This document shows positions 6,404 through 63,102 of a stretch of DNA of 64,000 nt, one piece after another. The notes beneath the pieces are model-generated. The model searched no databases. It saw nothing but the letters and a program-made list of their open reading frames with translations, and had not been told where the DNA came from. Source of the stretch: Cliona cf. orientalis (lineage: Eukaryota > Porifera > Demospongiae > Clionaida > Clionaidae); contig OZ005691.1 of the NCBI GenBank assembly GCA_963930775.1, positions 2,914,001-2,978,000 of the forward strand, in the 5' to 3' direction. Position 1 is the stretch's first letter; each line of letters opens with the position of its first letter. The translations under genes were made by a program, and so were the position numbers.

Positions 6404-9400
6404 GAGTAAGGTATGGATTTTCGAACGTACGCGTTTTCGGACATCACCAAGCCAACTTCGTTCAACCTGATGCTCTGTCCTGAACATCAACTGAGAGCCC
6501 CACCCAACAGTAATTAATGTCTACAATTAGTGACGCTGGAAGTTAGTGACATGGGTGTCGTGCTTCATCAAAGGAGTTATGCGAAATATTGATATTTGCC
6601 CAGGAGTATGAATTTTCGACTTAGCTTCGTAAAATACAAACTAAAAGTGATCAACTGTCTCCAACTCCAGTGCAGCACCGGTACTACCTTGCCGTTCATG
6701 ACCGGTAATTGTAGCCATCGAAGCCCCGCCCACTGCGCATGCGCAGTGGTTGTGCTAGGCCGGTTCCGGGTATTAATATTCGTCCGCACAGAAAGTCCGC
6801 TCTTTTGGAGAAGAAGGTCTTTACGTTGTTGTGGTCGCTATCAGAGCTTACCAAGTCGCCTGTAGCGGTACGGATCAATCCTACAACGTCATTTCACCCC
6901 GTAAAAACACCCAATCTACGGTAGCTGTTCCAGCGTTACAGTTTTCCCTAGTCAATTCAAACGTGTAGGTGAGTTAACAGTGATACACAGGACACTTCTA
7001 TATCGTCAAGAATATTTGACAATCGTTATTAAGGATCCATGGCAGGGGTGAAATTTAATATTAAAATTTAATATCATTAATAAATCTAGCTATAGTTAGC
7101 CATAAGTTTGAAATCCAAGCCAAACTGTTTTGTATAGTGGTTTCAGATGAATAATAATATTTAGAAGATCTTTATTAACATCATTTTTTATATTAAAGTG
7201 GCTATGGATAGCTGCAGATTTGCAGGTGTGCGGTCATCCCCTTAATTCAAGCCTTGTGTTAATAAGTTACTACTATAATAGCACTTAGTATTATCAAGCC
7301 CTAGTTCTTTCCAGTTTTATTTCTAGTTTTGAATTAATAGTAGTTACTCTTTTAATAATATGGCCTACATGTATACATGTGCATGCATGCATGCATGTCC
7401 AATTGGTTAGCTAGCACCATAAACAAGAACTGTCTGTTAGTAATCTAATTACATTGAACATGGGTACCTACAAGCTGTACTCTGAGGAAGCCTACCACAG
7501 TCCAGACCCTCCTATAGTTTGTATAAGAACATACTATGTACTGGTTTTTTTTTTTTTACTCTTAGCAGGTGTTCACAGTAAACATGCTGAGGAGAAAGAA
7601 TTCCAAGGAGTATGTACCCTTAGCAAGGAGAGTTTATGCAACAAGACCTTCCTCCAAGCCTTCTATACCTATCACCGATCGTAAACAGTCCAATCGCCCT
7701 GCTGCATACAAATTGTGGACTGAGGAAAAGATCAGACTTGCTTGTGAGGCTGTAAAATGTGATGAATACACATACAGCAGAGCTGAACTTGAATTTGGTG
7801 TCCCTAAGTCTACTATCCGAGACAGAATCAGCGGGAAAACCTTACCTGGTGCTACTAGTGGTCCAGAGCGGTACTTAACGGACACTGAAGAGCATGAACT
7901 GGTCCACTTTATCAAAGAATGTGCAAGGGTTGGATATGCCAAAACTAGGAAGCAAATTATCACTATAGTCGAGTTAGCTTTGAAAACAAAACGTGGTCCT
8001 GATGCCTCCATCACACCTGGTTGGTGGTACTCCTTCAAAGGTCGACACCCAGAGTTAACAATTCGTACAGCTGAGAAACTAGCCTATGCAAGGGCTATCG
8101 CTCAGGATCAATCAGTGCTTGACCATTACTTTGACCTACTGGAACAGACAATGTTGGAAAATGAGATAATTAGCTTTCCTAGCCGTATCTTCAATGTCGA
8201 TGAATCAGGATTCCCACTGCAGGCACACAAATCTTGTGTCGTAGCTGAAAAAGGATGCAAACACCCTACCACAGTAACTACTGGAGACAAGGCACAAATT
8301 ACTGTCATCGCCTGTGTTAATGCAAGTGGAGCAAAACTACCACCAATGGTAATATTCGACCGTAAAGTTCTTAAAGCAGATTTGACATTGAATGAAGTCC
8401 CAGAAACCATTTATGCTCTGACCGATAACGGATGGTCGAATAGTGAGGTGTTTGACATATGGTTTCACAATCATTTTCTGGCATATGCTCCCACAGCGCG
8501 GCCGCTGCTTCTACTGATGGATGGGCACTCATCTCATTACAATCCATCCACCATCAAGACAGCTGCAGCTCAGCAAATCATTCTTTTTTGTCTCCCACCT
8601 CATACAACTCACATCGCTCAACCTCTTGATGTAGCTGCTTTTGGAGTTTTGAAGCAGTGTTGGGATGAACAATGTCACCAGTATATGGCAAATAATCCAG
8701 GGAAGGTTGTCACTCGATTCCAATTTTCAGATTTATTTTCGCGTGCTTGGGCTGAAGCAATGATTCCACGAAACATTTGTGCAGGCTTCAAGGCTGCAGG
8801 GGTGTACCCTCTTGATTCAGCAGCATTTATTGCTCGTACAGCTTCCAGTGATGTTACCGACAGTCCGGCACATTCCTCTTCACTAAAGTTTGTGCCGATG
8901 TATAGCCCAATTGCTCCCAAAAGTAGACGTACTCAGTCGCTCACTCAGGAGGAGGAAAAACATTTTCAACAAAGGTTTGAAGAGGGATATGATCTTTCCA
9001 ATGATCCCAAATATATTTCATGGCTCCACATTCATCATCCTGATGAAGCTAAGCGTCTTTGTGAACTGATTATTGATCCTACTGAAGAATCTCAGAGTCA
9101 GCAAACGGCATCAGATGTTGAGGGTGTCATCCGTAAAAGTGGTCTATCTAAACTTCTACAGCTTCCAAAACTCCCTGCTAAGTGTGTCCCACCAGCCAAG
9201 AAATCCTGTGCCAAAGTGCTTACAAGCACGGAGAATCTGAAGCGAATTGAACAGAAAGAGAGAGAAAAAAGAGAAAAGATAGAATTGAAAGAAGCGAAGC
9301 GGCGAGAGCGTGAGGCTAAAAGGGAGGAGAAGATACAAGAAAAGGAAAAAAAGAAGCAAAACGCTGACACCTCCATAAAGTTTACACCTCAAGAAGTAAA

Positions 9401-10849
9401 ACTCTTCGCAAGACGACACGAGAATGGCTATAATTTGACTATTGATTCAAGGTACATGCTTTGGCTGAATTCTACATACCCAGATGAAGCTAAGAGGCTT
9501 CGTTCAAAGAAGACAATGGAGAGAACAGTGACAAGTAATGAAGTTGGAGGAACGAAAGATGGATCCACCAGTTGTGAAGAGCTCTCTGATGATGATCAGC
9601 ATGATACACTTTTGACTAAAAGTAAAAATCCAAAAGATCCTGTGAGTGCACGTGCCTCCACATGTAATACAGCCAAGAAGGGTAGAAATACTTCTTTGTG
9701 CACCACAAAAGGTGCCACATCAAAGCAGCGAAGTACTCAGAAAAAAGGAGAGCAAGCTAGTGGATCAAGGCTCAAGAAAGGAGGTGGTTCTAAATCTGGA
9801 AGTGCCTCTTTGTGCACCACAAAAAGTGCCACATCAAAGCAGCGGAGTACTCAGAAAAGCGGAGAACCAGCTGGAGAATCTAGGCTCATGAAAGCATCTA
9901 CTAAATCTGGAAGCTTAAGAGTTACACGTTCACAGACTCAAAACAGTAGGAATGCTAAATTGTGTGACAGTAGCACTTCCAGGAAAAAATCTGTAGCTAG
10001 TACAGCAGCTAAAGCGTGTACAATAGTGACACGGTCTAAGAAAGGATGCAAACAATCTCCCAGCCCAGTCCCTGAATCAGACATGTCAGAGAGTTCGGCT
10101 ATTGGCTCCGACTACGAAGAGGGTGAGTTTCCAATGAGTTGTATTATACTGGTAAAACTATTATAGTGGATGCTGGTAGTATCTAACACTATTTCTGCAT
10201 AAATACACACTGTCACTATCCTTTTATTTTCTTTTTTTTTTGCAGACCATCCATGCGATGCTACATTCTGCATAGCAGAGTTCTGCAATGATTCAAAGCT
10301 GCAGTGGGTATGCTGTCAAGACTGCAAAGCATGGCATCACCAAGTCTGTGTTGGGCTCAGTAACATAGAAATTACCAATGATGACGTCTACATCTGCTAT
10401 GATTGCAAAGAGTAACTTTATGTGTTGAATTTTGTGGAGAAACTCCTTGTAAATTGATTTAAAGGTTGTGCGATATTTCATACCGGAAATAATGTTCATA
10501 TTGGCGCCGCGCGCACAAGATGGGCGGGGCTAGGGGAGCTGCAATCACTACACAAGGAAGGTGAAGGGGTAGGCTAAGGATATTATGATTATGAACGATA
10601 GTCCTCTAGAATATAGCAAGTTACACTACGTGGACGAAAATTCATACTCCCGTCCATATATCGATATTTCGTTCGTCAACTTCGGTGCTCTACAGCGCCC
10701 ACGTTCTTAGACGCCATCATCACTCGTTCCAGATGGCTACTACTATCAGGCCACCCTACCACTTCATGACTACATTAATGTTTCTGGCATAATACTCGCA
10801 ACGAGAGGACGTCCGATAATTCCTACGTCCGAAAATCCATACCTTACTC
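6404..10849 (+). mobile_element. Complete pogo-type DNA transposon, 4446 bp
   Basis: Terminal inverted repeats begin GAGTAAGGTATGGATTTTCG at 6404 and end with its complement at 10849. Both are flanked by the TA target duplication (6402-6403 and 10850-10851) typical of the Tc1/mariner/pogo superfamily. A second, subterminal inverted pair (GGAGTATGAATTTTCG near 6603 and CGAAAATTCATACTCC near 10634) lies inside. The cargo is one transposase gene with no visible breaks. The long upstream segment 6404-7560 probably holds promoter and leader. The element lies inside a MITE whose two halves can be matched to an uninterrupted copy at 5087-5573. Confidence 0.9.
7584..10415 (+). CDS. Pogo/Tigger-like transposase with C-terminal PHD finger
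   Basis: Two exons, 7584-10122 and 10246-10415 (donor GTGAGT, acceptor T-tract TGCAG, phase 1), give about 902 residues. An acceptor just before 7569 suggests an upstream leader exon; the first in-frame ATG is 7584. A helix-turn-helix region (residues about 45-105) precedes a DDE_1 domain with D206 in NVDESG, D313 in LLMDGHSSH and D349 in QPLDVAAFG, spacing DD35D. After residue 450 comes a lysine-rich tail with two copies of a GYxLxxDxxYxxWL..PDEAKRL motif and two copies of an SLCTTKxATSKQRSTQK block. The second exon encodes a C4HC3 PHD finger (WVCCQDCKAWHHQVC), a likely chromatin reader used in targeting. All catalytic residues are present. Confidence 0.9.
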
Positions 10850-19285: not shown

Positions 19286-19872
19286 TAGGTCAAAGTACAT
19301 GCATGCTCGAGGCTGAGGGGCGTGGTCCCAATTAAGTCATCGATGGCCTGTAGAATCGTACTGTGTGGAGCGAGCTCTGTTGGAAAGACTACTCTAGCTA
19401 CAGACTGGACTGAACGTCACAGCGAGTACGCTCACATCAGTGAAGTCGCGAGGGATGTAATGAAACAACACTCGCTCAAAACAAAAGATCTAATCGAGTC
19501 ACTCAAGACACCTGAGAAAGCCACATTTCTACGCTTACAAGAGTTGATATTCGAGGAACAAAACCGCCGCGAAATTTCGCTGGAAGGCAAACCTTTCATC
19601 TCAGACCGCGGACCAGACCCTCTCGCTTACAGCCGATTTCAGTAGCGTTCGAATTTCCGTGTTCCGTAAGAAAGTTACGGAATTGTACGCGGGGCCGGGG
19701 GGGGGGGTGCTCAATGTTTGCGCATGCGTTTTAAATGGTTACCTGTAGTCCGGGCCAGCCCCTGGTACTATGTGAGATTACAATTAATGCCAGTCAAACA
19801 CGTGCGTGTGACTGTATGTGCATGTGAGAGAGCGTAGTTGCAGAGGCGCCAAATACCCGGAGCTAGCTAGCT

Positions 19873-21317
19873 ATGGAGGAGAACGACATCATAATTGATG
19901 GGAGCGAATCACGAGCGAGTGGCTATGATTCAGGCGGCCAAGAGCGATCGTCCTATGAATCATACTATCCGCCATATCCGAATCCATATTATTTTGGTCA
20001 CAATGACTACCAGATGAGTAGGTTTGTGCCTCCTCCACCGCCATTTACACGTCCAATATGTGAGGCAGCAAATACTGTTTACGGTCCTGCCAGCTTTTCT
20101 CAACCGGGCCAATCAGGTGACCCTACCTCTTATGAAATCGAGGTGAGCGTTAATTGAAAACCGAAGCTTAAAATAATTTTGCATGCAGGAGTGGATATTT
20201 AGTACATGTAGTATGTGTAGGTGCTACCCGAGTGTATTGTATGAGCATGTCTTCATAGTGTACAGTACGAGTGTATGTAATATTTTGTGTGAGAGTGCAT
20301 GTACATGTACATGTAGCTATCTTATTATTATGGAATACCTATTACACTATTTGTAGTGTACCCATTTAAGAATGTACTGTATGAGAGAAACATTTCAAGG
20401 TGTAAGAGTTTCATCTATGTCATACTGTTGCCCCTCCCCACTTCCCCATAATATTAGTGTGTACACCACGCATACAGTATAGATAGCCTTTAAATGTTTA
20501 GTATGGTAATCGTTTGCTGCAGTGCACTTCACAGAACAAGACTAAAGTGAGTCTTTCGCAGAAGCAGAAAATTAACTACAATGTGAAAATTATCAATCCA
20601 AAGAAGAAGAGTATACACACAACTAAATCGTTGCCCCAAAGTGATCGTTTTGATACCTTGAGTGACCTGCGGAGATATGTCAAAGAGAAGTTGGGTCAAC
20701 TCCAAGGAACTTTAGGTTACATTGAACCTGGCCATGGAGCTAAAGGAAAAATGAGAGAGCTTCACGATGATGAAGATGTGGCGGAAATGTACGTTTTGTA
20801 CAAAAGGAAGTCCGATGTGTTGCTCTGGCTCTATGGTAGTGTTGACGTTGAAGAATCAGATGATGCAACTCTTCCTCGTAAGCGTCCACGTACTGATATG
20901 CCCTTGCCAACTAGTACGAAACGTGACTCGATTGCTAAAACACTAAGTACAGTAGAAGACATTGTTATAAAGTTAAAGGAAAGGCATGGAGAAAGCGGCT
21001 TGTCAGTTGAGCAGTTTAACTGTTGGGCGCACATGATAAACTCAGGAAAATGCTCCTCATATGAGGAACCACCTAACTTTCCCTTCTTTAAGAAGACTAA
21101 GGGGAAAATGGTTCAAGAAGGTGATGCACCGGCTGAAAATAGCTGTCCCACTCCACTGGTAACCAATTCAGCTTCTCCGATGAAACGTTTGAATATGCGA
21201 ACACAGTGTATAGAACAGTTGAGCAAGTGGCATGTTTTGTTGGAGTCTGGAGCCATAACTCAAGTGCAATATGAGGAATTGAAGAGCTCCATTATTGACG
21301 ATATGAAGAAGATGTAA
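19873..21317 (+). CDS. Transposon accessory protein, PB1-like and SHOCT-like regions
   Basis: Exons 19873-20142 and 20523-21317 (donor GTGAGC, acceptor GCTGCAG, phase 0) give about 354 residues. The first exon is low-complexity, rich in Pro, Tyr and Ser (YYPPYPNPYY, PPPPPF). The second starts with a basic segment and a region (about residues 115-190) with the spacing of a PB1-like fold: LRRYVKEKLGQ, GYIEPGHGAKGK, DVAEMYVLYKR, VLLWLYG. The C-terminal 35 residues (WHVLLESGAITQVQYEELK) resemble the short SHOCT oligomerisation motif. Both fold names are pattern-based guesses. Proteins of this type occur in sponge DNA transposons as far as I recall, and a structural or regulatory partner of the transposase is the likely role. 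Confidence 0.7.
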
Positions 21318-21468
21318 GGCACTTTTAGTGCAGTTTTGAACTTTGTTAATAGTTCTCTGTTAGTAATCACTATTATTGGATCATTGGAACGTTAAAATTA
21401 ATTATTATTAATTTTGATTACATTGTTTTCAGCTGAAGACAAAAATTAATTATAATAATGACGTTGTA

Positions 21469-22464
21469 TTAGTTTAATAGCGGATATCCTGAGTCAGTAA
21501 TCCAGGAATTACATTGCTCTTTAGTTATGGAATTAAATGCAGCTTGCACTACTACAGGCAGAGGAGCTCCAGATTGTAATAAGAGGTCATGCCTCTTCAA
21601 ATAAGATTTGACAAAACTAAATGCCTCTTCAGCTGGATTCAAATCCGGACTGTAAGGGGGGAGGTATAGCACCAAAATTCCGACCTGCTGTAGTAGATGT
21701 CGTACTTCAGCAATATGATGCACTGAGCAATTGTCCATAATTATGATGGAATGAGGATTGCTTCCATTGAAGGGCATCATGTTTGGAATTAATGATCCTC
21801 GAAGAAAGTCAAAGAAGTCACTTCCACTAACAGTCTCAAGGACTAGATCTACTGCAACAACTCCACTAGAAGCCAATGCTGCAATGGCATTTACTCGCTG
21901 CCCTCTGGCTAGTAAGCGATGTGCTGTTGGAGTCATACCTCTGAGAGCATATCCAAACTTGCGCATGTGATCCCGAGCATCACTGCCTGTCTCGTCAATC
22001 CATACAAACATATCTCTCGTAAACATGGTAGACTGTGCCATAAATGCACCACGAAGAGTATAGCATCTCTGTGCTGCAATTTGCCTAACTTTCTTCCTTG
22101 TGAATCCGTAGCGTTTCAAGAGCCTACAGATAGTTGCTGGAGAAACAAGCACTGATGTCAGTTCACTCACTTCTTGAACCAACTCATCTAGATAAAGGGT
22201 TGGATTCTCCAAGATAAGACCAATAATAAGCAGCTCTGAGTGTTCATCTAGAGCTCTCATTTCTGGTCTCATTCCTTGTTTTGCAGCCTGTACCTCTCCA
22301 TCATTTTCAAAACCCTTAAAAATTCGATGTGCAGTGCTAGTAGCTATGTTCAAGTTCTTTGCTATTTTGTGAAAGGGCAGTTCCATGCCCAAACGTTGAT
22401 ATACGATTCGCCATCGCAGGTCGGTCGAATAAGCTTTCTTCCTTGCGGGCTCTGCAGACATCAT
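21469..22464 (-). CDS. IS630/Tc1-type DDE_3 transposase, intact DD34E
   Basis: A single exon of 331 residues from the ATG at 22464. Residues about 10-120 contain paired helix-turn-helix motifs (LPFHKIAKNLNIATSTAHRIF and the ATICRLLKRYGFTRKK segment). The DDE_3 catalytic core has D157 in VWIDETG, D244 in IIMDNCSVHH and E279 in SPDLNPAEE, with 34 residues between the last two. This is complete catalytic equipment for cut-and-paste movement at TA sites. It lies on the opposite strand to the accessory gene and ends 151 bases from it, tail to tail. Confidence 0.93.
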   Translation of the reverse strand: MMSAEPARKKAYSTDLRWRIVYQRLGMELPFHKIAKNLNIATSTAHRIFKGFENDGEVQAAKQGMRPEMRALDEHSELLIIGLILENPTLYLDELVQEVSELTSVLVSPATICRLLKRYGFTRKKVRQIAAQRCYTLRGAFMAQSTMFTRDMFVWIDETGSDARDHMRKFGYALRGMTPTAHRLLARGQRVNAIAALASSGVVAVDLVLETVSGSDFFDFLRGSLIPNMMPFNGSNPHSIIIMDNCSVHHIAEVRHLLQQVGILVLYLPPYSPDLNPAEEAFSFVKSYLKRHDLLLQSGAPLPVVVQAAFNSITKEQCNSWITDSGYPLLN

Positions 22465-22883
22465 CAAATTCAAATTTTCCGCCGAAGTAGCTATTTAAAT
22501 TTGAATGCGCATGCGTTATATTATACCGCGCAATTTCCGTGCACCCCCGCGCAATTCTGCGTAGAACGTGATACGCGACGGAGATTCGAACGCTACTGAA
22601 ATCTACTGTACGTCTGCCACAAGAAAAGCGCGGAAGCAGCCGACGAGTTAGCGAAAACATCTGCAGCATCGGAGTGTCTCAAGCGCTACCAGAAGTCCCT
22701 TGTGTTGGTACTCTGTCCCCTGGTAACACAGACAGATGATGGATTCCGGATGGTCCAGGACAGAGAGGAGCAGGAACAATTCACCAGAGTCCTACGCGAG
22801 CAGCTGCAGAAGCACGGAATTCCCTACATCTATGTTGACGAGACCGACAGGAGACAACGTATTGCTTTCGTGGAAAGAGCCGT

Positions 22884-23870
22884 CCAGGGTATGCCATATA
22901 AAAATATCAATTTTTAATATAAATAAATATGCTGGCAGTGAGCATGGATAATTTGTAGATGAGGGTACTTGCAGGTAATCTGAGACTGACATTAAGTTTG
23001 TAATCCCACTGGCCTAGCATTGTCCCCACGCCCTCCCCGATCTTTTTAACGCATGTGGCTAGAAACATTGGGGAGTCTGGTGTCCAACACCACCACCCCC
23101 GCTCCACATGGCTACAGATCAGTTATGACACGCTATGTATCTTTTTACACAGAATTCACAGCACATGAAAGCTTCCATTAGAAGCATAGATATTGATCAA
23201 GAAATGAGTACCAACACTTTGAACAAAGGAACAGAATGTTAGATAGATACGGTAGCAATAGTTATGTCATTTTTGACTTTTGCCCAGGGTATGCCATGTA
23301 AAAAATATCAATTTTTAATATAAACAAATACGCTGGGGTATGAGCAAGGATACTTTGTACTTGTAGATTATTAGGGTACTTGCAGACAATCTGAGACTGA
23401 CATTTTGTAATCCCACAGGCCTAGCACTGTCCCCAGGCCCTCCCCAATCTTTTCAATGCATAGGCGTAGGAACCATGGGGGCTCCAGGGGCTGGTGCCCC
23501 CTATATTTTCTGATAGTTACGTAGCTAGGCTCAATTTTATACACACTGATCATACTGCCCTTGCCTATAGATCTATAGAGCTCCCCTTTACCAAACCATC
23601 TTCCTACGCCCCTGCAATGCATAAATGCATGGCTAGAAACATTGGGGAGTCTGGTGTCTAACACCACCACCCCCGCTCCACATGCTACAGATCAGTTATG
23701 ACACGCTATGTATCTTTAATTCTTACACAGAATTTACAGCACATGAAGGCTTTCGTGAGAAGCATAAATATTGATCAAGAAATGAGTACCACCACTATGA
23801 AACACTTTGAACAAACGAACAGAATGTTAGATAGATACGGTAGCAATAGTTTTGTCATTTTTGACTTTTC
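22884..23870 (+). repeat. Tandem duplication at the 5' end of the RdRP gene
   Basis: Positions 22884-23286 and 23286-23870 are two copies of one segment: CAGGGTATGCCAT, then AAATATCAATTTTTAATATAAA, GGGAGTCTGGTGT, CTACAGATCAGTTATGACAC, ACAGAATT.ACAGCACATGAA and GATAGATACGGTAGCAATAG. The second copy runs straight into the RdRP frame. The first has small deletions that break that frame at TAG and is a dead exon copy. The second copy also carries a small hAT-like insertion absent from the first. Confidence 0.85.
23462..23614 (+). repeat. 153-bp hAT-like MITE
   Basis: Ends AGGCGTAGGAA and TTCCTACGCCCCTG are inverted, with an outer CAGGG form at the right. They are flanked by the 8-bp direct repeat CAATGCAT (23454-23461 and 23615-23622). 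An 8-bp duplication with CAGGG ends is typical of hAT elements. The duplicated segment at 22884-23286 lacks it. Confidence 0.75.
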
Positions 23871-26800
23871 AAGAAAGGTGGAAGCGGCTACAGTCCGTAA
23901 AGTACTTCGAGGAGGTGTCACTATTAACGGAGAGGAGTATCGATTCATTGGGTGTAGCTCTAGTGGACTTAAAGAACGCACTTGCTATATGTTCAAGGGC
24001 TCTTCTGCCAAAGTGGATCGAATACTGGAAGAGTGCGGTTCATTTTCGTCAATCAAGTCCCGATACAAACGGCTCAAGCGGATTGGTCTGCTCTTCTCCT
24101 CAGCCACACCCACTCAGATTGTAGTCCCTGACGACAGAGTTGTTGAAATACAAGATATCGAAACTTCTGGTGGTAACTTCACCGATGGCTGTGGGGCAGT
24201 TAACCTGGCCATTGCCGAGCAACTACGAAAGAGCTGCAGGTTCATTGACGATAAGTATTGTCCGTCAGTTTTTCAGATCCGTTATCAAGGTTGTAAGGGA
24301 GTGGTGATGATTGATCCAAAGCGGAAAGAGACTGAGCAGTTGGTGATCCGACTTTCCATGAAGAAGTTCGGACCAGGACGAAAGCCTTTTAGGGAGCTTT
24401 GGCTCTGTGATCACTCTCGTCCGTATACGTTTGGCCATCTCAATCGGCAGTTCGTCACCCTTTTATCAAGCCTTGGAGTTGAAGATGACGTGTTTCTACA
24501 TATCCAGACGGAGCACTTTGAAAGGTTGCAGAGTATTCATTTCAATCCAGAGGCTGCATTTGAAATGCTGCTGCTTGATAACCAGCCTGAATTAGCATCA
24601 CTTTGCACGAATCTTGAATCGTTGAAAAAGTATAGCTCTCAGCTCTCGAAAGTGAAGACAAAATTTGTCTCCAAATTGGATAAACTTCGGCTACCTGTAG
24701 CAAAATCACGCAATGTATTTGGAGTGTGTGATCCAACTGGTACACTGCAATACGGCCAGTGCTATTTCCGATACACTGAACATGGCAACTCCAAGACCCT
24801 GCAAGGAAAGGTGGTGGTTGCCAAAAACCCGTGCTACCTACTAGGGGACGTTCGAGTGCTAACTGCCGTCAATGTTGAAGAATTGAATTACCTCGTCGAC
24901 TGCATAGTGTTTCCTACTCAAGGCAAGCGACCTCACCCGTCGGAAATTGCTGGCTCAGATTTGGATGGGGATCAGTACTTTGTTTGCTGGGATGAAGGTC
25001 TCGTTATTCCTCGCGTTGCAGAGCCGTATAGTTACCCATCTGAAGATGTTCACGAAACTAGTGAAAACATCACCACAGAGATCTTGATTGATTATTTTGC
25101 CCGTCAGAGAAACAACATGGGCAAGATTGACGGTTACTACAAGTATTGGGCCAACAAGGAAGGAGCCAGCTCTCCAAAGTGTCAAATGCTGGGCCAGCTA
25201 TTTTCAAGAAGTGTAGATGCTACTAAAACTGGTGATGTGGTGCCTATTCCTCCACACCTGAAGCCTCCATCAGTAGAAGGCAGCATTACAGACTCGCCAA
25301 GCCAAGGAGATAGTTCTTCTGAGGTACAAATTATACATGTATGGGAAAAGATGGAAAAGCGAGCAAAGGAGATGAAGCAAGCCTTTAGTGAAGATATTGT
25401 ACAAAGAGAGAATGCAAGCACAATGAGTGAAGAATTCATATGGAGTTTACTAAAAAACAAAGTTCCAAATCTTTCCGAGTTTCAGTTGCTACAACTCATC
25501 CAAAATTGGTGCTCTCATCACTCCTCTTCAGACGACGAATATCGCGAGAAATTTCTCGAATTTTCAAGGCAAATCAACTTCGGAGAGTTCACCGTTGATC
25601 AACAAATCGTAGCAATTGATTATGGAATCCCTTTGAAGACAGTCACGAATGCACTGAACACTTCCAAACTCCTCCCAAAGACGATGCTTGAAAAGTTTTT
25701 GCTTGACGACCCCCACCGCACCTGGAGATTCTATTTTAACTCCACCTCTGTTGAATTCAACTGGAAGCATCTTCTTAGGGGACTTCAGAGTCACCCTGAG
25801 TCAATGGTTATCATCAAGCTCCATGATGAGGTCACATTTGTGCTTCACTTCCTATCACCACCCCAAATAGGAGAGACCGATCTAAGCAGTGGCTCTGTGG
25901 TTGCTTACTTCTCCTCTAACCACTTCAACCTGGACTTACAGTGTGTGATCGGATCAGATTTCAAGCTCATTCTCAACGAGGAGACCCTGCAACTCTTTCG
26001 TGGGAAGAAAACTGCCACCTTCATTTGGCTGAGCAGTGAGCAACCAGCAAGACAGCAAGGCCGGCAAAGAGTTGATAGTGATAGTATTCTCTTTGATCGA
26101 ATCAGTGTCGATTTGACAAGATTCAAACGTAATGTGCTTCAAACTAATCAACATCCAAGAGTCAACAAACAGAGCTTCTTAAGTATTGAGATGTTTGTGA
26201 AGAGTCACAACTTTCAACCAGCCTATATGGACATCACTGAAGCTGATCTCCAAGAGGACTACCCCATAGAAGAGGCAGGCATTGCTGGTGATATTGACGA
26301 TCTCCCTAGTGATTCAGAGGAAGAGTGCGAAAGTGACACACCTGCGGATGTACCAGATCCATTCTCCACTGATGCTGCTCTTGCTTTGCTAACACAGTCC
26401 GCTCAGAGGGGATGCTACCGCAGCTTCCAGAAGGTTCTGGAATCGCTGCTATCAAGAGGTGGTACAAATATTCCAAATTTACTACCTCCTCTCCACCAAC
26501 TACTAACAGCGATGGTCAACAAATACTGCCACAGAGTTCTCTCAGATGAAGCAGTGCAGTGTCTTCAAGTCATTGTCGCATCCCTCTATCCCTATATAAG
26601 AGCTCCTGTGGATCTTCTCGAGCTATTTAGTTGCATTGGTCAGTTGGGTCTCTCCTCCCTGATCGAACAGATTATTGACCACATCCTACCAAATGTTTGC
26701 GCAACACAATCGTCCGAGTACATTGACGTTGTTAGCAAATGGAAGCTGTGGTACTATTTACCTCGTGATGTGGCTGTCAGACTTTCACAGCACTTGTATG

Positions 26801-29352
26801 ATCTCTACTCATCACTGTGTTACGAAACTCCTTCAAATAGACCCCCGTCTGATCATGACGTCGTTGGCATTACCTCTTCACCAGAAAATGAACTTGTTCA
26901 CTTGGCTAGCAATGTGAATCATATTGGATCACTCAAACAGCATCAGATTGAGGGGTATGTAAACCACTTCTCCCATCTTGTCCTTAATCATCTTCTGTGC
27001 GAGATCTTTGCCTCACGAGATTCATGCAACCAAACTTGTGATACGACCACTAGTTTAGTCAGAATGTCCTGCTGTGAATACAAGCACCCCCATAGCCAGT
27101 CTCCTCCATTGAAAACAGATTCTAGTGATGGCACAAAAAGTGCTAATCCCTACACAATCACTTTTAATCGGCCAACCAAGGTTATTGCTTCAAAAAACTT
27201 CACTGTTGGAAGTTATGTAGCAATAAACCTAATGACAAAGCAAGGGACACCGCAGACGATCGTCTTTGTACCTGTAGCGATTGGACGTATTGTCGGTGTT
27301 TCGAGCCATCCTGCCAACATCGTGACGGAGATTGCCGAACCAGTCCCTCTCTGTTTAAAGAGGTCGGCACGCTGTGAGAGGGGTCATTGGCAGCTGGTCC
27401 TGGTGGGTAACGTCACATCATTCGACAGGTCACTGAAAGCCTTGAAGACCCTCAGGGAAGCTCCAGAGTGTACAACCTTACTCCCACTAATAGTTCATTC
27501 TTATTGTGCTGTGTCAGCTCCTGGCAAACAAAACAGAGTAGAAGGTGAACTCACCTCTCAAGCAACTGGATCTGTTTCGACGGTCGAACAGTGTATCATT
27601 CAGCCAAAATCGCAGTTGAATTCGAGTCAACAGAAAGCAGTGTGTGCATCCCTTGAGCAACGATTGACGTTGATCCACGGTCCTCCTGGCACTGGAAAAA
27701 CACATGTCGCCTGTGAAATAGTTCAGCAATTGTTACTCAGGAACAGGGAACACAATCCTGTTCTTGTTGTAGCGGAAACCAACCTAGCTGTGGACAACTT
27801 GTGTGAAAAGCTCATGAGCCTAGGAGTACGAGTGGTTCGAATAGGAAAGCTCGATCACATAGCATCTCCCATACGAAGCATTTCACTAGAAGGACAGATT
27901 GAAAAGAAGAGACTTGAAGAAGGGAGAGACAAACCCAAATCTCCATTTCCAAGCAAAAAGGCCATCAAGTCAATCCTCAATGCTGCTCAGGTTGTTGCAG
28001 CTACGTCTACAAGTGCCGGCGACTCCAACTTGAAGGGAACCAAATTTCCGTTTGTGATAATCGATGAAGCTACTCAGGTCACAGAGCCGACCTCACTCAT
28101 CCCATTGGTGTATGGATGCCAGCAACTGGTACTCATTGGAGATCCTGAGCAGCTAGCTCCTAATCTCCCAGCACCACAGAAATCTGAACTTCAGGTTGGT
28201 GAATTATCAGTGACTCTCTTTCATCGACTTCAAGAAGCTTTACCTTCTATATTTTTGAGTGAGCAGCATCGTATGCACCCAGAGCTGGCTAGATTTCCCT
28301 CCTGCAAATTCTACGGAGAAAGATTGTTGACTGCAACCAGCCGTTGTCAGCAGAAATCTGCTTTTCAAGAGGAAATTCCGATCCTCGACTGTAACAATCC
28401 TGCTGTGTTTGTACGAGTTAGTGAGCTAGAGAATCGTATTGGTACTTCATTTTGTAATCCCGGAGAAGCAAAGGCTGTTACCAGAATCATCAACTATCTT
28501 ATTGAACATAAAGTGAGTATGCAACAAATGGCCGTCCTTACTCCTTATTCCGGACAGGTGAAGTGTATCCAGGAAGAATGCCAGAAGGAAAAGATTTTTC
28601 ACACTCGAGTGCACACCATTGATTCATTCCAAGGCAGGGAAGCAGACGTAATCATTTTCAGTACAGTTCGTTGCAACTCGCAAGGAGACTTGGGCTTTAC
28701 GAGTGACCGATATCGAATGAATGTTCTCCTGACTCGAGCAAAACATGGCCTGATTGGGATAGGTTGTGAGAATACCCTATCAAAAGGTTCCTCACTGTGG
28801 AAGGAGTGGCTGGAGAGTGTTAAGGTGATTGGTAGTGTTCACGAAATCCCTGAATCTCATGATAGAGGAGGAGGTGGGTCAAATTTTCGAGGTAATCGGC
28901 CAGTACATGTAGGTGGAGCCCAAGGTGAACGTGGCCGCTGGAATAGTACTCGGGCACAAGGCAGAAGGTTCGATGGTGGTGAACGGTATCATTCTAGTAC
29001 TAGTGGCGCAGCTGGAGATGGCCCAACATCTACTGAGAGAACTCGAACCCAAGAAAGAACTGGAAACAATCAGGAGTATGATAGTCAACGGCGAAGAGGT
29101 GGCTATAATTATGGAAGGAGAGGGCAGAGGAGAGGTGGAAGGGGGAGAGCTAGCTCAAACTATCATCATCATGGAGGGGGAGAAGGTGGCACAGATGTAG
29201 CCGCACAGCACTGGAGTACGAGCGGCAGTGAAGCTAGTTCAAGGGGAAGACAAGGGAACCGAGGAGGGTGGAGAGGGAGAGGGGGTGGACCCTCTAATTA
29301 TAGATCAAGAGGTCGTGGATATTATCAAAGGTCCACTGGAGGTACTACATAG
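23698..29352 (+). CDS. RNA-dependent RNA polymerase fused to SF1 helicase and RGG tail
   Basis: One uninterrupted frame of 1884 codons. Residues about 35-520 match the eukaryotic cellular RdRP family (RDR/QDE-1/EGO-1): TNRMLDRYG, FIGCSSSGLKERTCYMF, GKVVVAKNPC, DVRVLTAV, GKRPHPSE, the catalytic DLDGD at 421-425, and SRSVDATKTG. Residues about 530-1290 hold an acidic stretch (DDLPSDSEEECE near 878) and a probable beta-barrel. Residues 1300-1710 are a UPF1/ZNFX1/Hrr1-like SF1 helicase: Walker A GPPGTGKT at 1328-1335, DEAT at 1456, GDPEQLAP, SEQHRMHPEL, DSFQGREADV, RMNVLLTRAK. From about 1720 the tail is Gly/Arg-rich with about five RGG units. Expected action is second-strand RNA synthesis on unwound templates in small-RNA silencing. 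The start may be the ATG at 23698 or 23743, or upstream by splicing (acceptors near 23693 or 23730). The usual N-terminal helical region of RDR proteins is missing here. Confidence 0.93.
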   Translation: MTRYVSLILTQNLQHMKAFVRSINIDQEMSTTTMKHFEQTNRMLDRYGSNSFVIFDFSRKVEAATVRKVLRGGVTINGEEYRFIGCSSSGLKERTCYMFKGSSAKVDRILEECGSFSSIKSRYKRLKRIGLLFSSATPTQIVVPDDRVVEIQDIETSGGNFTDGCGAVNLAIAEQLRKSCRFIDDKYCPSVFQIRYQGCKGVVMIDPKRKETEQLVIRLSMKKFGPGRKPFRELWLCDHSRPYTFGHLNRQFVTLLSSLGVEDDVFLHIQTEHFERLQSIHFNPEAAFEMLLLDNQPELASLCTNLESLKKYSSQLSKVKTKFVSKLDKLRLPVAKSRNVFGVCDPTGTLQYGQCYFRYTEHGNSKTLQGKVVVAKNPCYLLGDVRVLTAVNVEELNYLVDCIVFPTQGKRPHPSEIAGSDLDGDQYFVCWDEGLVIPRVAEPYSYPSEDVHETSENITTEILIDYFARQRNNMGKIDGYYKYWANKEGASSPKCQMLGQLFSRSVDATKTGDVVPIPPHLKPPSVEGSITDSPSQGDSSSEVQIIHVWEKMEKRAKEMKQAFSEDIVQRENASTMSEEFIWSLLKNKVPNLSEFQLLQLIQNWCSHHSSSDDEYREKFLEFSRQINFGEFTVDQQIVAIDYGIPLKTVTNALNTSKLLPKTMLEKFLLDDPHRTWRFYFNSTSVEFNWKHLLRGLQSHPESMVIIKLHDEVTFVLHFLSPPQIGETDLSSGSVVAYFSSNHFNLDLQCVIGSDFKLILNEETLQLFRGKKTATFIWLSSEQPARQQGRQRVDSDSILFDRISVDLTRFKRNVLQTNQHPRVNKQSFLSIEMFVKSHNFQPAYMDITEADLQEDYPIEEAGIAGDIDDLPSDSEEECESDTPADVPDPFSTDAALALLTQSAQRGCYRSFQKVLESLLSRGGTNIPNLLPPLHQLLTAMVNKYCHRVLSDEAVQCLQVIVASLYPYIRAPVDLLELFSCIGQLGLSSLIEQIIDHILPNVCATQSSEYIDVVSKWKLWYYLPRDVAVRLSQHLYDLYSSLCYETPSNRPPSDHDVVGITSSPENELVHLASNVNHIGSLKQHQIEGYVNHFSHLVLNHLLCEIFASRDSCNQTCDTTTSLVRMSCCEYKHPHSQSPPLKTDSSDGTKSANPYTITFNRPTKVIASKNFTVGSYVAINLMTKQGTPQTIVFVPVAIGRIVGVSSHPANIVTEIAEPVPLCLKRSARCERGHWQLVLVGNVTSFDRSLKALKTLREAPECTTLLPLIVHSYCAVSAPGKQNRVEGELTSQATGSVSTVEQCIIQPKSQLNSSQQKAVCASLEQRLTLIHGPPGTGKTHVACEIVQQLLLRNREHNPVLVVAETNLAVDNLCEKLMSLGVRVVRIGKLDHIASPIRSISLEGQIEKKRLEEGRDKPKSPFPSKKAIKSILNAAQVVAATSTSAGDSNLKGTKFPFVIIDEATQVTEPTSLIPLVYGCQQLVLIGDPEQLAPNLPAPQKSELQVGELSVTLFHRLQEALPSIFLSEQHRMHPELARFPSCKFYGERLLTATSRCQQKSAFQEEIPILDCNNPAVFVRVSELENRIGTSFCNPGEAKAVTRIINYLIEHKVSMQQMAVLTPYSGQVKCIQEECQKEKIFHTRVHTIDSFQGREADVIIFSTVRCNSQGDLGFTSDRYRMNVLLTRAKHGLIGIGCENTLSKGSSLWKEWLESVKVIGSVHEIPESHDRGGGGSNFRGNRPVHVGGAQGERGRWNSTRAQGRRFDGGERYHSSTSGAAGDGPTSTERTRTQERTGNNQEYDSQRRRGGYNYGRRGQRRGGRGRASSNYHHHGGGEGGTDVAAQHWSTSGSEASSRGRQGNRGGWRGRGGGPSNYRSRGRGYYQRSTGGTT

Positions 29353-31181: not shown

Positions 31182-31691
31182 CTTGCCCAGGGCTCCAACC
31201 TTTTCAAGTTAGTCGAAATTGACTCCACAGACCCAAGCATGATCAAACAGCTCTACTTATCCATGGTTCGACCCCATCTGGAATATGCGTGCCAGGTGTG
31301 GGATCCACATTTGATAAGAGACAAGCACAAGCTTGAAAGTGTTCAGAAGTTTGGTCTCAAGTTTGCAGCACGTCGGTGGGATGCTGGGTATAATGAACTA
31401 CTGGACTTGTTCAACCTACCAACACTAGAGGAGCGTAGAATTCACCTAAAACTTGGTCTATTGTTTAAAATCATACACAATCTGTGTTATTTCCCACACT
31501 TGCCGCCACTCCGTGAGAATGTTAGAGATCTCCGAGCACCCCATGATCAGCAACTTGCTGTACCGCTTGCCCGAACCAATTCGTATCACTACTCCTTCTT
31601 CCCACACACTTTACGAACTTGGAACACTTTGGACAACTCGTGTGTTGAAACCAACAATTATTTGTCATTCATGAAGCACCTGAAACTGTAA
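31182..31691 (+). mobile_element. 5'-truncated LINE, end of reverse transcriptase ORF
   Basis: The frame is open from about 31185 to the stop at 31691. It encodes the region after the polymerase palm of Jockey/CR1-type retrotransposons: LYLSMVRPHLEYACQVWDPH, KLESVQKFGLKFAARRW, LPTLEERRIHLKLGLLFKIIH. The catalytic YxDD part and everything upstream are missing, as in dead-on-arrival insertions. It is not a functional gene. Confidence 0.85.
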
Positions 31692-36148: not shown

Positions 36149-39100
36149 TTAATGAAATTCTTCCAGCTTTTCTGCTAGTTCTCCCTTTTCAATGTCGTGG
36201 AGGACCCTTGCCAGTGTGGCCCATGTCGTAGGCTTCATCCCCCTGCCTTCCAGCCACTCCTGAAGAATGTGACGGTTGATGTTCTCCCCGTTTCTCTGAT
36301 ACTGCTGCACCAAGTCATCAATGTGAGCTGAAGTGGGCTCCTGAAGGAGCTGAGCACCAAAGTTCTGATACTTGGAACCAATTTCACGAGGAATGTTGAT
36401 GTTCTGATCACCAGCTTTGAAGTTGAGGAGCTCAGGCATGGTAGGAGCCGAGCCTGCATGGAAATAAATTCAATGTCAACACTATTATAATAGCAAAACA
36501 AAAGAAGCCAAGAACAAATAATATTATAGAGGTACATGATATAGTACAATGCCATAGTACTTACCTGTTTGAGAATCGATTGCAGTAGTGCTATTGATCC
36601 ATGTCAACTGACTCGGGGAAAATTCTGCTCCAACACCTTCGTCTTCGGTACAGATCCAGCATTTATCTCCAATGGTAGCAGGATGAGGCTCTCCAGCCCC
36701 ACAAGGACAGAGAAAGGCAAAAGATGGCGTCGAGTTCGTGTAGTGTAATGCAACATTTGCTTTGCGCAAACCAGCAGTGATAGCACACTTGACTGCTGGA
36801 CACACTTTAGCGGCAGCTTGATTTGAAGCAACGCACACGTGAACTTCGAACTGTAGTAGGGTGTCGATTAAAGTCACAGTGCATGGTGTCTTCAGGCCAG
36901 GGATGGTGAACTGGATGCAGTTGCGGTGGAGGCAGGTTGGAGTGACAGACCTGGCTGGCATCTTAAGCTTCCATGGGCTGGGGTGGTGGTTCTCTGGTGA
37001 AGTTAAGAAGCAGAGGAGAGAGCAGAAGATCCCTCGACGTGGAGGCCCATTGGGAAAGTGAAGAACTATTGGAAACACAACAGTGCTTGCGCTCAAACGA
37101 TATTTGGAGACCTCTTCGTTGCAAAGCATTCGAAGCAGGCATGGCACGAAATATTTCCCATTCAAAAACTCAGCAAATATGTATAGCTTCCGGAAAAGGA
37201 TCATCAAATCCTTGGGTTGGAAATAACCCTCGACATAGTGCTTCTCAAACATCTCTTGAGAGAGGAACTCTAGCGTAACAAGAGCGTGATCGATAAACAA
37301 TTTCCACTCTTCTGTGTCTTGGTCGGGACCAGAACCACTCAATATATCAAGATGAACCTTAACGAGCTCAGAAAGTTTGTCAAGAAGCACTTGAGGGTTG
37401 GTGAAAACTTGATTGGGAAGAATTTCGGGATAGTACAAGATCAAGGAGAGCTCATCGAGGTACATCAGGGCAGCCTCTAAGGTGCTCTCATTCAAACGAA
37501 GCCGCCTTCCGATTTCAACACATTCGCTCTTGCTGAGCACCCCTCGCTTGAGAACCTGAGTAACCTTCTCCAGGACCATCTCCAAACCCAACCACGGCAG
37601 GGGTAGCTTTGTTGGAACAGCCTGTCGATTTTTGGTCACCGCATTGCGAATCCTTTCAGCTATCTTCTCCTCCTCTCGACCAGGATGCTTGGCATTCATT
37701 GGGAATAGCACCTTCTTGGTACCGTAATGAAAGTAGATGATTTCCCTATTGAAATTTGGAAGGAGCACCCCCAATTTCGCATTCTTGGCATCTCGCGATT
37801 CCTTACTCTTGTGTTCTTCGTCCTTGTGGGTTCCAATAACTATAATCTTTGGAGCATCGCCGGCAGCTCCCTTGTCCTTGCTGGATCTATGGGAGTGAAG
37901 TGATTGGAGACCTCGCTGAATGAGCTGCTCAGTGGTGTGATCAGATCTGTACGGAGTGCCAACAGGATTCCCATTCTCAAAATATTCGATCATTGGATGG
38001 CTAGATAGCTCTTCCGACAGCTTGATGACAAACACGATCATTGACATCTTGCGGAGGAAGATTGGAAGGACCTCGTGGAACTGAGGCTGGCCACCGCAGT
38101 CCACCACCAGAAGCTTATGCAAGAACGTGATTGGATCGACATTCTCTGGGCACTTTTCGATGTTTTGAAATATCTCGTCAATGACATCTTGGATCACTTT
38201 GAGCACCTGGGGATCAACCAAGCTTCGTGCTGGAGTAGCACCTGGTGGTGGCAGTGGTTTAGGGGTTGCTTGCTCACGGGTACGATGTGGTTGGCTTGTT
38301 GGAGTAGACGTTGTCGATTTCCCTGCTTCAATAGACCTTGAAGCACCTGACTCATTATCACTAACCTCTGCATCACTCTGCTCACTCTCGCTCTCTTCTG
38401 TGTCGCTCAGCTCACTAGTTGGTTCATCCATAGAAATGTGATCAAGAACATCAAGGAGTTCATGTCCTAATATTGATTTTGATATCTGTCTGCAGAGGGC
38501 GATTTTTTGCTGTGGCGTATACTTGATCCAGATCTCCTTCATTGCTTGGAGTTGGTACAAGGAGACGGGGCGGGTGGCTATGGGGGTGCTGTCTCTGGTG
38601 TCAGGTGGTGCCTCGCCGGCGACAACGCTCATGGAGCTTGTCTTGCCGACACCAGCACTACCATAGAACACCATTTTGTCGATGAACATCTCTACGAAAC
38701 CACGGTCCATGGACAGATCAAATAGCCGCCGAGACTCACTGGTACCTACACGTATATGTACACACCGCATTAAACTATGATTATTATACCTACATATGCA
38801 TGACATTGTGCATTGTATACATGTGTACGTACATAATCTTATTGTTAATTTTTGTTCTCATGAGCCTTATTTAATTATTGCAGTACACTAGTGCAGGTTA
38901 GTGCATATCAAAAGAGCAGCTCGTCAAGTCATGTGTACAAGCTGCGCATTTTAAAGAACATTTCAAGGTATCAGTGAAAGTAAGTACTGCAGTATCCCGC
39001 AAATTATTACGCCCTCCTCACACATAAGCCACCCCCCCCCCCCCCCGACTGTAGCATGTACATGTAGATATTACAGTCCATAAGCCAATAAAACACTCCA

Positions 39101-60477: not shown

Positions 60478-63102
60478 TCACGACTTATTTGACGAAAACT
60501 CTTCCAGCTTTGCTGCTAGTTCTCCCTTTTCAATGTCGTGGAGGACCCTTGCCAGTGTGGCCCATGTCGTAGGCTTCCTCCCCCTGCCTTCCAGCCACTC
60601 ATGAAGAATGCAACAGTTGATTTCTTCACCATTTCTCTGATACTGACGCTCCAAGTCATAAATATGAGCCAAAGTGTGTTCCTGCAGGAGCTGCGCACCA
60701 AAATTCCGATATTTAGAACCAATCTCATGAGGAATGTTGATGTTGCGATCACCAGCTTTGAAATTGAGGAGCTCAGGCATGGTAGGAGTCGAGTCTGTAT
60801 GATCAAAAATTCAATGTTAGTACCATCGCAACAAAAACGGTCATGGAAAGCTAAAAACAAACTTAGATATTACAGGACCTGATACATGAATATGCTTATA
60901 ATATAAGATGTACATGCATGTAATTACCTGTTTGAAAATTGATTGCAGTAGTGCTATTCACCCATGTCAACTGATTTTGGGAAAACTCTGCTCCAATACC
61001 TTCGTCTGCGGTACAGATCCAGCATCCATCTCCAATGGTAGCAGGATGAGGCTCTCCAGCTCCACAAGGACAGAGGAAGGCAAAAGATGGCGTCGAGTTC
61101 GTGTAGTGTAATGCGACATTTGCTTTGCGCAAACCAGCAGTGATAGCATCTTTCACTGCTGGACACACTTTAGTGGCAGCTTGATTTGAAGCAACGCACA
61201 CGTGAACTTCGAACTGTAGTAGGGTGTCGATTAAGGTCAAAGTGCATGGTGTCTTCAAGCCAGGGATGGTGAACTGGATGCAGTTGCGGTGGAGGCAGGT
61301 CGGAGTGACGGACCTGGCTGGCATTTTAAGCTTCCACGGGCTGGGGTGGTGGTTCTCTGGTGAAGTCAAGAAGCAGAGGAGAGAGCAGAAGATCCCTCGA
61401 CGTGGAGGCCCATCGGGAAAGTGAAGAACTATTGGAAACACCACAGCGCTTGCGCTCAAACGATACTTGGAGACCTCTTCGTTGCAAAGCATTCGAAGCA
61501 GGCATGGTACGAAATACTTCCCATTTGAAAACTCGGCAAATATGTAGAGCTTCCGGAAAAGGATCACCAAATCCTTGGGTTGGAAGTAACCCTCAACATA
61601 GTGCTTCTCAAAGACCTCTTGAGAGAGGAACTCTAGTGTAACAAGAGCGTGATCGAAAAACAATTGCCACTCTTCTGTGTCTTGGTCGGGACCAGAGCCG
61701 CTCAACATATCGTGATGAACTTTAACAAGCTCAGAAATTTTGTCGAGAAGCACTTGAGGGTTGGTGAAAACGTGACTGGGAAGAATTTCGGGATAGTACA
61801 AGATCAAGGAGAGCTCATCGAGGTACATCAGTGCAGCCTCTAAGGTACTCTCATTCAAACGGAGCTGCCTTCCGATTTCGAGACATTCGCTCTTGTTGAG
61901 CACCCCTCGCTTGAGAACCAGAGTAATCTTCTCCAAGACGATCTCCAATCCCAACCACGGCAGGGGTAGCTTCGTTGGAACAGCCTGTCGATTTCTGGTC
62001 ACCGCACAGCGAATTGTTTTGGCCATATCCTCCTCCTCTCTACCAGGATGCTTGGCATTCATGGGGAACAGCACCTTCTTGGTACCGTAATGAAAGTAGA
62101 TAATTTCTCTCTTGAATGTCGGAAGGAGCATCTCCCTCAATCTCGCATTCTTGGCGTCTCGCGATTCCTTACTCTTGTGTTCTTCGTCCTTGTGGGTTCC
62201 AATAACTATAATCTTTGGAGCATCACCAGCAGCTCCCTTGTCCTTGCTGGATCTATGGGAGTGAAGTGATTGGAGACCTCGCTGAATGAGCTGCTCAGTG
62301 GTGTGATCAGATCTGTACGGAGTGCCAACGGGTTTCCCATTCTCGAAATATTCGATCATCGGATGGCTAGAGAGCTCTTCCGACAGCTTGATGACAAAGA
62401 CGATCATTGACATCTTGCGGAGAAAGATTGGAAGGACCTCGTGGAACTGAGGTTGACCACCGCAGTCCACCACCAGAAGCTTGTGCAAAAAGGTAATTGG
62501 GTCGACATTCTCCGGGCACTTGTCGATGTTTTGAAATATCTCATCAATGACTTCTTGGATCACTTTGAGCACCTGGGGATCAACCAAGGTTCGTGCTGGA
62601 GTAGCACCTGGTCGTGGCAGTGGTTTAGGGGTTGGTTGCTCATGGATACGATGTGGTTGGCTTGTCGGAGTAGGTTTCGTCAATTTCCCTGATCTTGAAG
62701 CATCAGGTTCATCATCACTCTCCTCTGCATCACCCTGCTCACTCTCGCTCTCTTCTGTGTCGCTTGGCTCACTAGTTGGATCACCCATAGACATGTGATC
62801 AAGAACTTCAAGGAGTTCTTGTCCTAATATTGATTTTGATATCTGTCTGCAGAGGGTGATTTTTTGCTGTGGTGTATACTTGATCCAGATCTCCTTCATT
62901 GCTTGGAGTTGGTACAAGGAGACGGGGCGGGTGGCTATGGGGGTGCTGTTTCTGATGTCAGGTGGTGTCTCGCCGGCAACAACACTCATGGAGCTTGTCT
63001 TGCCAACACCAGCACTACCGTAGAACACCATTTTGTCAATGAACATCTCTACGAAGCCACGGTCCATGGAGAGATCAAACAGCCGCCGAGACTCACTGGT
63101 AC
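60478..63102 (-). CDS. ROCO protein with death domain, copy 2 (5' part not seen)
   Basis: Two minus-strand exons, 63102-60928 (Roc-COR) and 60794-60478 (C-terminal death domain), match copy 1 over their full length with mostly conservative changes. P-loop GSAGVGKT, DCGGQ and THKD are kept, and both introns are phase 1. Copy 2 has a shorter Ser/Glu-rich insert and a longer C-terminus (FSSNKS). It begins, like copy 1, at GTSESRR behind an acceptor, so upstream exons are required. None of the death exons was found in the remaining 900 bp, and they may lie beyond the window. A partial gene rather than a proven pseudogene. Confidence 0.8.

Follow-up and report, generated by a model that had tools for sequence, protein, structure and literature searches.

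A 64,000-nucleotide stretch of the genome of the sponge Cliona cf. orientalis (contig OZ005691.1, positions 2,914,001 to 2,978,000; hereafter the window) contains a gene that encodes a eukaryotic RNA-dependent RNA polymerase (RdRP) and a superfamily 1 (SF1) helicase on a single chain. Most of the gene is one large exon at 23698-29352 on the plus strand, a single open frame of 1884 amino acids from its ATG and the longest open reading frame (ORF) in the window. The RdRP catalytic domain occupies residues 36-522 (23803-25263), where a Pfam scan matches PF05183 with E 4e-119 over profile positions 12-547 of 582 and where residues 454-938 of RDR2 can be aligned; its metal-binding catalytic motif, DLDGD, lies at residues 421-425 (24958-24972). 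A family-specific middle domain at residues 551-870 (25348-26307) follows, for which the Pfam scan of the frame gives no match and which is filled in at least 87% of 31 aligned rows in every 40-residue bin. The UPF1-like SF1 helicase spans residues 1225-1713 (27370-28836), with AAA_11 (E 3.5e-45) and AAA_12 (E 3e-49) inside residues 1306-1691 and with the motifs GPPGTGKT at 1328, DEAT at 1456, GDPEQL at 1481, SFQGRE at 1643 and LTRAK at 1678. The chain ends in an RG-rich tail (residues 1714-1884, 28837-29349) that holds 13 RG dipeptides, five of them RGG, in the final 171 amino acids. A preliminary description of this DNA had proposed an RdRP core, an SF1 helicase and an RGG tail in one animal frame, and that claim is borne out, with all the motifs it named in place.

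Comparison with solved structures supports the same assignments. Searched as a single sequence, the frame is matched by RDR2 at residues 66-525 and by UPF1 at residues 1227-1708, and a profile of 41 rows recovers UPF1 at 1e-127, the best match for the helicase, and RDR2 at 7e-118; chance is excluded as the source of the domain identities. The helicase core is UPF1-like, but the UPF1 Zn-binding domain PF09416, which UPF1 proteins such as P0137 carry in their annotation, is not found in the frame (14 Pfam families at E 0.01), and UPF1 itself was rejected as its identity. ZNFX1, of which the preliminary description had cited the pairing with EGO-1, was rejected as well: the Pfam scan of the frame does not find the ZNFX1 domain PF25396, which two of three tested paralogues in the genome carry, and this sponge has separate genes for ZNFX1-type helicases. 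Outside the gene there are nine strong SF1 helicase matches, arranged as two tandem clusters and single copies (C2 14.25-14.27 Mb, C10 8.59-8.62 Mb, C16 and C18). PF25396 is present in the paralogues L002 and L007 and was not seen in the examined stretch of L004, and the ZNFX1-type family appears from these matches to be expanded. With regard to the polymerase, an exon-level search of the 216.8-Mb genome gives the gene at 23698-29352 as the sole PF05183 match, and a second genome search agrees on a single PF05183 gene, its one additional match being a decayed piece of that gene's exon.

The preliminary description had placed the start of the gene at 23698 and had missed an N-terminal NadR-type domain. 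The gene is better read as encoding a kinase-RdRP-helicase chain in which the ATG at 23698 is not the start, because kinase coding sequence is found upstream of it, at 19343-19629 and 22611-22888. A tblastn search with the N-terminal AAA_28 region of relatives matched at 19343-19636 and 22603-22890. The first kinase part (19343-19629, plus strand) runs from an ATG to a transposon insertion and includes the P-loop GASSVGKTT; it is 64% identical to P0028 over 98 amino acids. The second part (22611-22888, plus strand), 34-55% identical to relatives among the rows listed, ends at a GT donor at 22889 with a score of 2.0. An AAA_28 profile search of the genome finds both, with E 2e-9 at C3:2933352-2933648 and E 3.5e-4 at C3:2936669-2936860, and the same family is matched in the relative P0028 at E 1.3e-19. 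The bacterial NadR structure 1lw7 gives a weak but full-length match, at E 2.7e-7 over positions 6-192 with the 41-row profile and only 0.001 with the single sequence. Unlike NadR, the kinase of the sponge family has no adenylyltransferase or helix-turn-helix part, and its P-loop has been lost in several relatives. An intron predicted by splice scoring would occupy 22889-23695 (plus strand), its 3′ end being unsure, and sequence searches show that the beginning of exon 3 has been duplicated at 23131-23280 on the same strand, in a decayed copy that carries stops and a frameshift.

The two kinase parts are separated by a Tc1/mariner-like DNA transposon of 2979 bp (19630-22608) that lies within the kinase coding sequence and is bounded by inverted repeats (CAG...CTG) and by a TA target-site duplication (19628-19629 on the left, 22609-22610 on the right). 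The element contains a 267-amino-acid ORF with no assigned function (20514-21317, plus strand) and a transposase ORF with DDE_3 (E 3.5e-26) and HTH_23 domains (21469-22473, minus strand). When the element plus one TA is excised in silico, the empty site restores an open kinase frame that aligns with relatives. Three other full-length copies, 99, 99 and 96% identical, are present in the genome together with many diverged partial copies, and TA flanks all four copy ends located by an exact seed, which missed two further ends. An ordinary intron between the kinase parts is ruled out by the inverted repeats, the TA duplication and the three other full-length copies of the sequence in the gap. Because the identity among copies is high, the insertion seems to be recent, and the element has probably been active recently. 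When donors at 19500-19760 and acceptors at 22480-22720 were searched for splicing that would remove the transposon, only two in-frame pairs were found, the better scoring -15.8 on a crude scale on which the likely exon-2 donor scores 2.0. As no plausible splice pair removes the element, the kinase is probably broken in the assembled haplotype.

Genome-wide, AAA_28 gives five matches at four places, all on the contig and strand of the gene and within about 52 kb. These are an intact copy at C3:2885255, broken copies at 2902240 and 2912103 (the three extra copies are L029-L031), and the two pieces in the window; the nearest extra copy lies 1.9 kb before the window start. The intact kinase exon is 52% identical to the interrupted one, from which it lies about 48 kb upstream, and over 188 codons the proportion of synonymous differences (pS) is 0.84, which is saturated, and that of nonsynonymous differences (pN) 0.29, values that fit long constraint on the kinase at the protein level. 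The upstream copies might be alternative first exons, so that the protein would exist in forms that differ in their kinase head. The clustering of all five matches on one strand would suit this arrangement, as would the intact copy, whose terminal GT donor aligns and is in phase with that of the window kinase, and the fact that the genome has no second RdRP with which the copies could be partnered. However, only one of the three extra copies is intact, and a free-standing kinase gene would fit equally well; alternative heads are on balance unlikely.

Proteins with the same arrangement are found well beyond this sponge. A search with the whole frame returned 134 proteins at E ≤1e-10, and in 114 of the best 120 of these precomputed annotation lists PF05183 together with AAA_11 or AAA_12. 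A domain scan made for this analysis counts both domains in 118 of the 120, among which P0008 has an RdRP match of only 51 residues and P0116, P0119 and P0120 have helicase matches of only 97-98 residues. The preliminary description had considered that the frame might be an assembly join of two genes. Such a join, or the mistaken merging of neighbouring genes, is ruled out by the presence of the same frame in independent contigs of many relatives, and its probability is negligible, P0001-P0007 being 76-82% identical across 98-99% of the query. Further searches with the helicase region of a diatom protein (best 120 of 1347) and the RdRP region of a Trichoderma protein (best 120 of 370) added Hydractinia, Branchiostoma, Diversispora, Gigaspora, Amphora and many ascomycetes; since all searches were seeded with fused proteins, they are uninformative on the frequency of unfused RdRPs. 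Both domains, a combination for which the preliminary description had proposed to look, occur in 240 of the 283 fetched proteins and in the window frame, and in all 241 the RdRP lies N-terminal to the helicase, separated by 393-822 amino acids (median 646). Three-domain relatives include the Hydractinia protein P0130, a fused protein of the diatom Amphora that also carries the kinase, and P0109, which bears kinase, RdRP and helicase, is labelled by its source as a complete ORF of contig GFUD01029359 (from the label, a transcriptome contig) and is presumably from a copepod. RG-rich tails with at least five RG were present in 8 of 20 relatives inspected, namely seven sponge-like rows and an amphioxus protein. 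A pattern scan of viral contigs for a viral origin matched 56 stretches, none of them confirmed by tblastn, which is not proof of absence.

Trees were built from subsets of the 241 two-domain proteins, hand-picked to give a wide spread, with 58 rows for the RdRP (including RDR2), 73 for the helicase and 31 for the two concatenated. Rows with at most 200 matched positions were dropped from the helicase tree, which removed P0116, P0119 and P0120, and the labels sponge, eumetazoan and deuterostome include metagenome rows assigned by tree position. The separate trees of the two domains agree in their groups, which are fungi, amphioxus with a crinoid, sponges, and cnidarians and bivalves with adjoining diatoms. 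Set against UPF1 and the ZNFX1-type paralogues of the genome, a comparison that the preliminary description had suggested, the helicases of the fused rows group apart (0.964). In the concatenated tree, where 20 of 28 inner branches are starred, support of 100/100 is obtained for ten sponge rows, for the amphioxus group, and for a group of kinase-bearing sponge, diatom and eumetazoan rows, and of 100/99 for fungi. The ten-row clade that contains the window protein includes Dysidea, Ephydatia and Oopsacas, its other six rows being metagenome proteins. The diatom fused RdRPs P0111 and P0122, joined by P0127, stand beside cnidarian and bivalve rows and not outside animals; treating diatoms as an outgroup, with sponges and eumetazoans united without them, was rejected by an approximately unbiased test (p-AU 0.0004) that was chosen after the tree had been seen. 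Transfer between animals and diatoms is one possible reading of this placement and hidden paralogy another. The accessible text of a description of the RdRP beta group by Pinzon and colleagues has stramenopiles embedded in that group, which by description resembles the placement found here.

The linker between the two enzymes can also be aligned among sponges, cnidarians, bivalves, amphioxus, diatoms and fungi. Given the agreement of the two trees and the common linker, the simplest explanation, and a likely one, is one ancient fusion that took place before these lineages diverged, and the anatomy described above together with a single old fusion may be held with high confidence on these comparisons.

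The three enzymatic parts have not been conserved equally. DLDGD is present in 238 of the 241 proteins, the exceptions being P0008 (which is cut short), P0197 and P0276. There are 86 proteins with a long N-terminus, and 80 of them cover the kinase P-loop; all 80 have DLDGD and 78 have the helicase Walker A motif, while the kinase P-loop is intact in only 64. Of the other 16, two (P0055 and P0066) begin only at the loop itself, and one, the fungal P0235, shows no trace of a kinase; altered loops occur in three Mytilus proteins and in Mya, Dreissena and Seminavis. From these counts the polymerase and the motor appear to be kept together and the kinase to be expendable, a pattern of kinase loss with which the transposon in the sponge kinase is in keeping.

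Elsewhere in the window, an ORF of 865 amino acids at 7569-10166 (plus strand) has a DDE_1 transposase-type domain (E 4e-22), and a 169-amino-acid frame at 31182-31691 (plus strand; 150-amino-acid ORF without a Pfam match) reads as resembling the end of a reverse transcriptase from a retrotransposon without long terminal repeats. Two very similar ORFs on the minus strand, of 760 and 723 amino acids (36527-38806 and 60899-63067), have weak Roc matches (E about 0.002, with COR-A at 0.007 in the first) and are each followed by similar short frames, representing a recent duplication.

RdRPs and SF1 helicases also work together in well-studied systems. In Schizosaccharomyces pombe Rdp1 pairs with Hrr1 in RDRC, and in Caenorhabditis elegans EGO-1 pairs with ZNFX-1; these are separate subunits, in contrast to the one chain described here. 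The Dictyostelium RrpA type, like the sponge protein, has RdRP and helicase on one chain, but its helicase is a Dicer-like enzyme of superfamily 2. The closest characterized counterpart is fungal. FgRdRp5 of Fusarium graminearum (FGSG_09076, here P0217) was reported in 2015 and 2024 with an RdRP and DEAD-like/AAA domains, according to the accessible parts of both articles (PMC4515635, PMC11237814), and falls within the fungal sister group of the concatenated tree. As far as the accessible text of the later article goes, its expression covers both the sexual and the asexual stages, and its deletion lowers Dicer-dependent exonic small interfering RNAs (siRNAs), a function in which FgRdRp1 and FgRdRp2 partly share (PMC11237814). 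FgRdRp5 and its ascomycete relatives resemble the sponge protein in having an RdRP followed at similar spacing by a UPF1-like SF1 helicase, with an aligned linker and DLDGD; unlike it, the fungal rows have no N-terminal kinase (P0112 was scanned, and PF13521 is in none of the best 120 of 370), and the three fungi inspected have no RG tail.

Among animals, the amphioxus RdRP BL02069 bears AAA_12 according to a figure legend of 2019 (Fig 1B, PMC6396948). The B. floridae protein P0139, by inference its counterpart, resembles the sponge protein in combining RdRP and SF1 helicase in a single chain and in its RG-rich tail (9 RG), but it has no kinase and belongs to a separate clade. RdRPs were already known from Porifera, as the accessible part of one report states (PMC6085071). 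The RdRP-helicase fusion itself has thus been described already, in Fusarium and in amphioxus, against the impression of the preliminary description that none was known from animals; the literature searched offers no sponge example. The apparent novelties are the form with a kinase, how widely it is spread, and the repeated decay of the kinase beside an invariant RdRP site. The open-licence literature searched contains no account of a kinase-RdRP-helicase protein, which is weak evidence since subscription papers and preprints lay outside the search. In the accessible parts of the literature on house dust mite, bdelloid rotifer, Cryphonectria, Cryptococcus, tick and Lophotrochozoa nothing was found on an RdRP-helicase fusion; for Cryphonectria no RdRP is there reported to act in antiviral defence, and those RdRPs belong to other clades.

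The favoured reading, which is somewhat better than evenly poised, is that the gene product is a single-chain RNA-copying machine that yields double-stranded RNA (dsRNA). It would combine a NadR-type kinase, a cellular RdRP of the double-psi beta-barrel type with its DxDGD motif, the middle domain, a UPF1-like 5′-3′ helicase and, in the sponge lineage, an RG-rich tail that would bind RNA. The helicase would move along the template and clear it while the RdRP builds the second strand, and the resulting dsRNA would then feed Dicer and Argonaute; the genome has genes for RNase III, one of which carries a pair of domains in a 727-amino-acid frame, and PIWI domains at about four places. The kinase is likely to be an accessory module, end-modifying or ligand-binding, that can be lost, and the RdRP-helicase part is probably still made in this animal, either from exon 3 by itself or with a short leader in front of it. 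Like FgRdRp5, the sponge protein would supply one dsRNA route and not the whole RNA interference (RNAi) of the organism.

Several observations weigh against parts of this picture. The phase-consistent acceptor of exon 3, AG at 23695, scores poorly and a better one at 23730 is out of phase, so that the predicted junction of exons 2 and 3 is not secure. Across the 241 proteins the helicase motifs are less complete than the polymerase site (Walker A in 232, DEA in 219, GDxxQL in 222, LTR in 191 and SxQGxE in 48), which is due in part to cut-off frames. Six rows without an RdRP lie inside the clade of fused helicases; loss, truncation and later fusion cannot be told apart for these, and a single fusion is not proven. 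With respect to function, the accessible text of the amphioxus study finds no RdRP-type siRNAs in an animal that has the fused RdRP and proposes an RNAi-unrelated role (PMC6396948), and that of the sponge study reports for Halichondria panicea one RdRP, its family not stated, and no viral small RNAs despite 5′-triphosphate-treated libraries (PMC6085071). The inference of the preliminary description that the gene implies small-RNA amplification therefore goes beyond the data, and in view of these negatives dsRNA production for silencing is put at roughly even chances.

The same small-RNA negatives would suit a fused RdRP that works outside siRNA amplification, converting aberrant or foreign RNA to dsRNA for surveillance, innate signalling or decay, the UPF1-like helicase providing a link to RNA quality control. 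Among solved structures the helicase is indeed closest to UPF1, and fungal members bear the source name 'related to NAM7-nonsense-mediated mRNA decay protein (RdRP)'; on the other side, the lack of the UPF1 Zn-binding domain in the frame speaks against such a link, and FgRdRp5, the only member found with functional genetics, lowers exonic siRNAs when deleted (PMC11237814, accessible parts). This alternative would be given about one third of the weight. The gene may instead be decaying in this animal, the transposon having removed the kinase, the start of exon 3 having been partly duplicated and degraded, and the remainder drifting. The insertion without plausible splice rescue, the degraded exon 3 fragment and the two pseudogenes among the three further kinase copies would be expected under decay, yet the 5.6-kb exon is fully open with its RdRP and helicase motifs intact, the constrained kinase exon upstream is undamaged, and the insertion may be polymorphic; general decay is accordingly judged quite improbable.

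A more extended version of the RNA-copying reading is doubtful but may be stated. The three-enzyme chain may be an old eukaryote component that has been kept in sponges, cnidarians and bivalves and that diatoms also have, perhaps having received it from animals; the kinase may phosphorylate or sense RNA ends, or a nicotinamide/NAD-type ligand, and so gate copying, and the cluster of kinase exons may give alternative heads, one of them broken by a transposon. If this were true, the transposon that broke one head would exemplify the sort of element that such a system might police.

Many animals keep RdRP genes, although RdRP-made siRNAs have been shown for few, and the reason for this is an open question that is stated for amphioxus in the accessible text of the 2019 study (PMC6396948). 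The family described here has a template-clearing motor and a polymerase on one chain, with an RdRP site that is near-invariant across phyla and a kinase that repeatedly decays. It is therefore predicted that helicase and polymerase must act together, and that the kinase need not act with them. Since the gene is single-copy in the sponge and has a three-domain relative in Hydractinia, its function should be testable.

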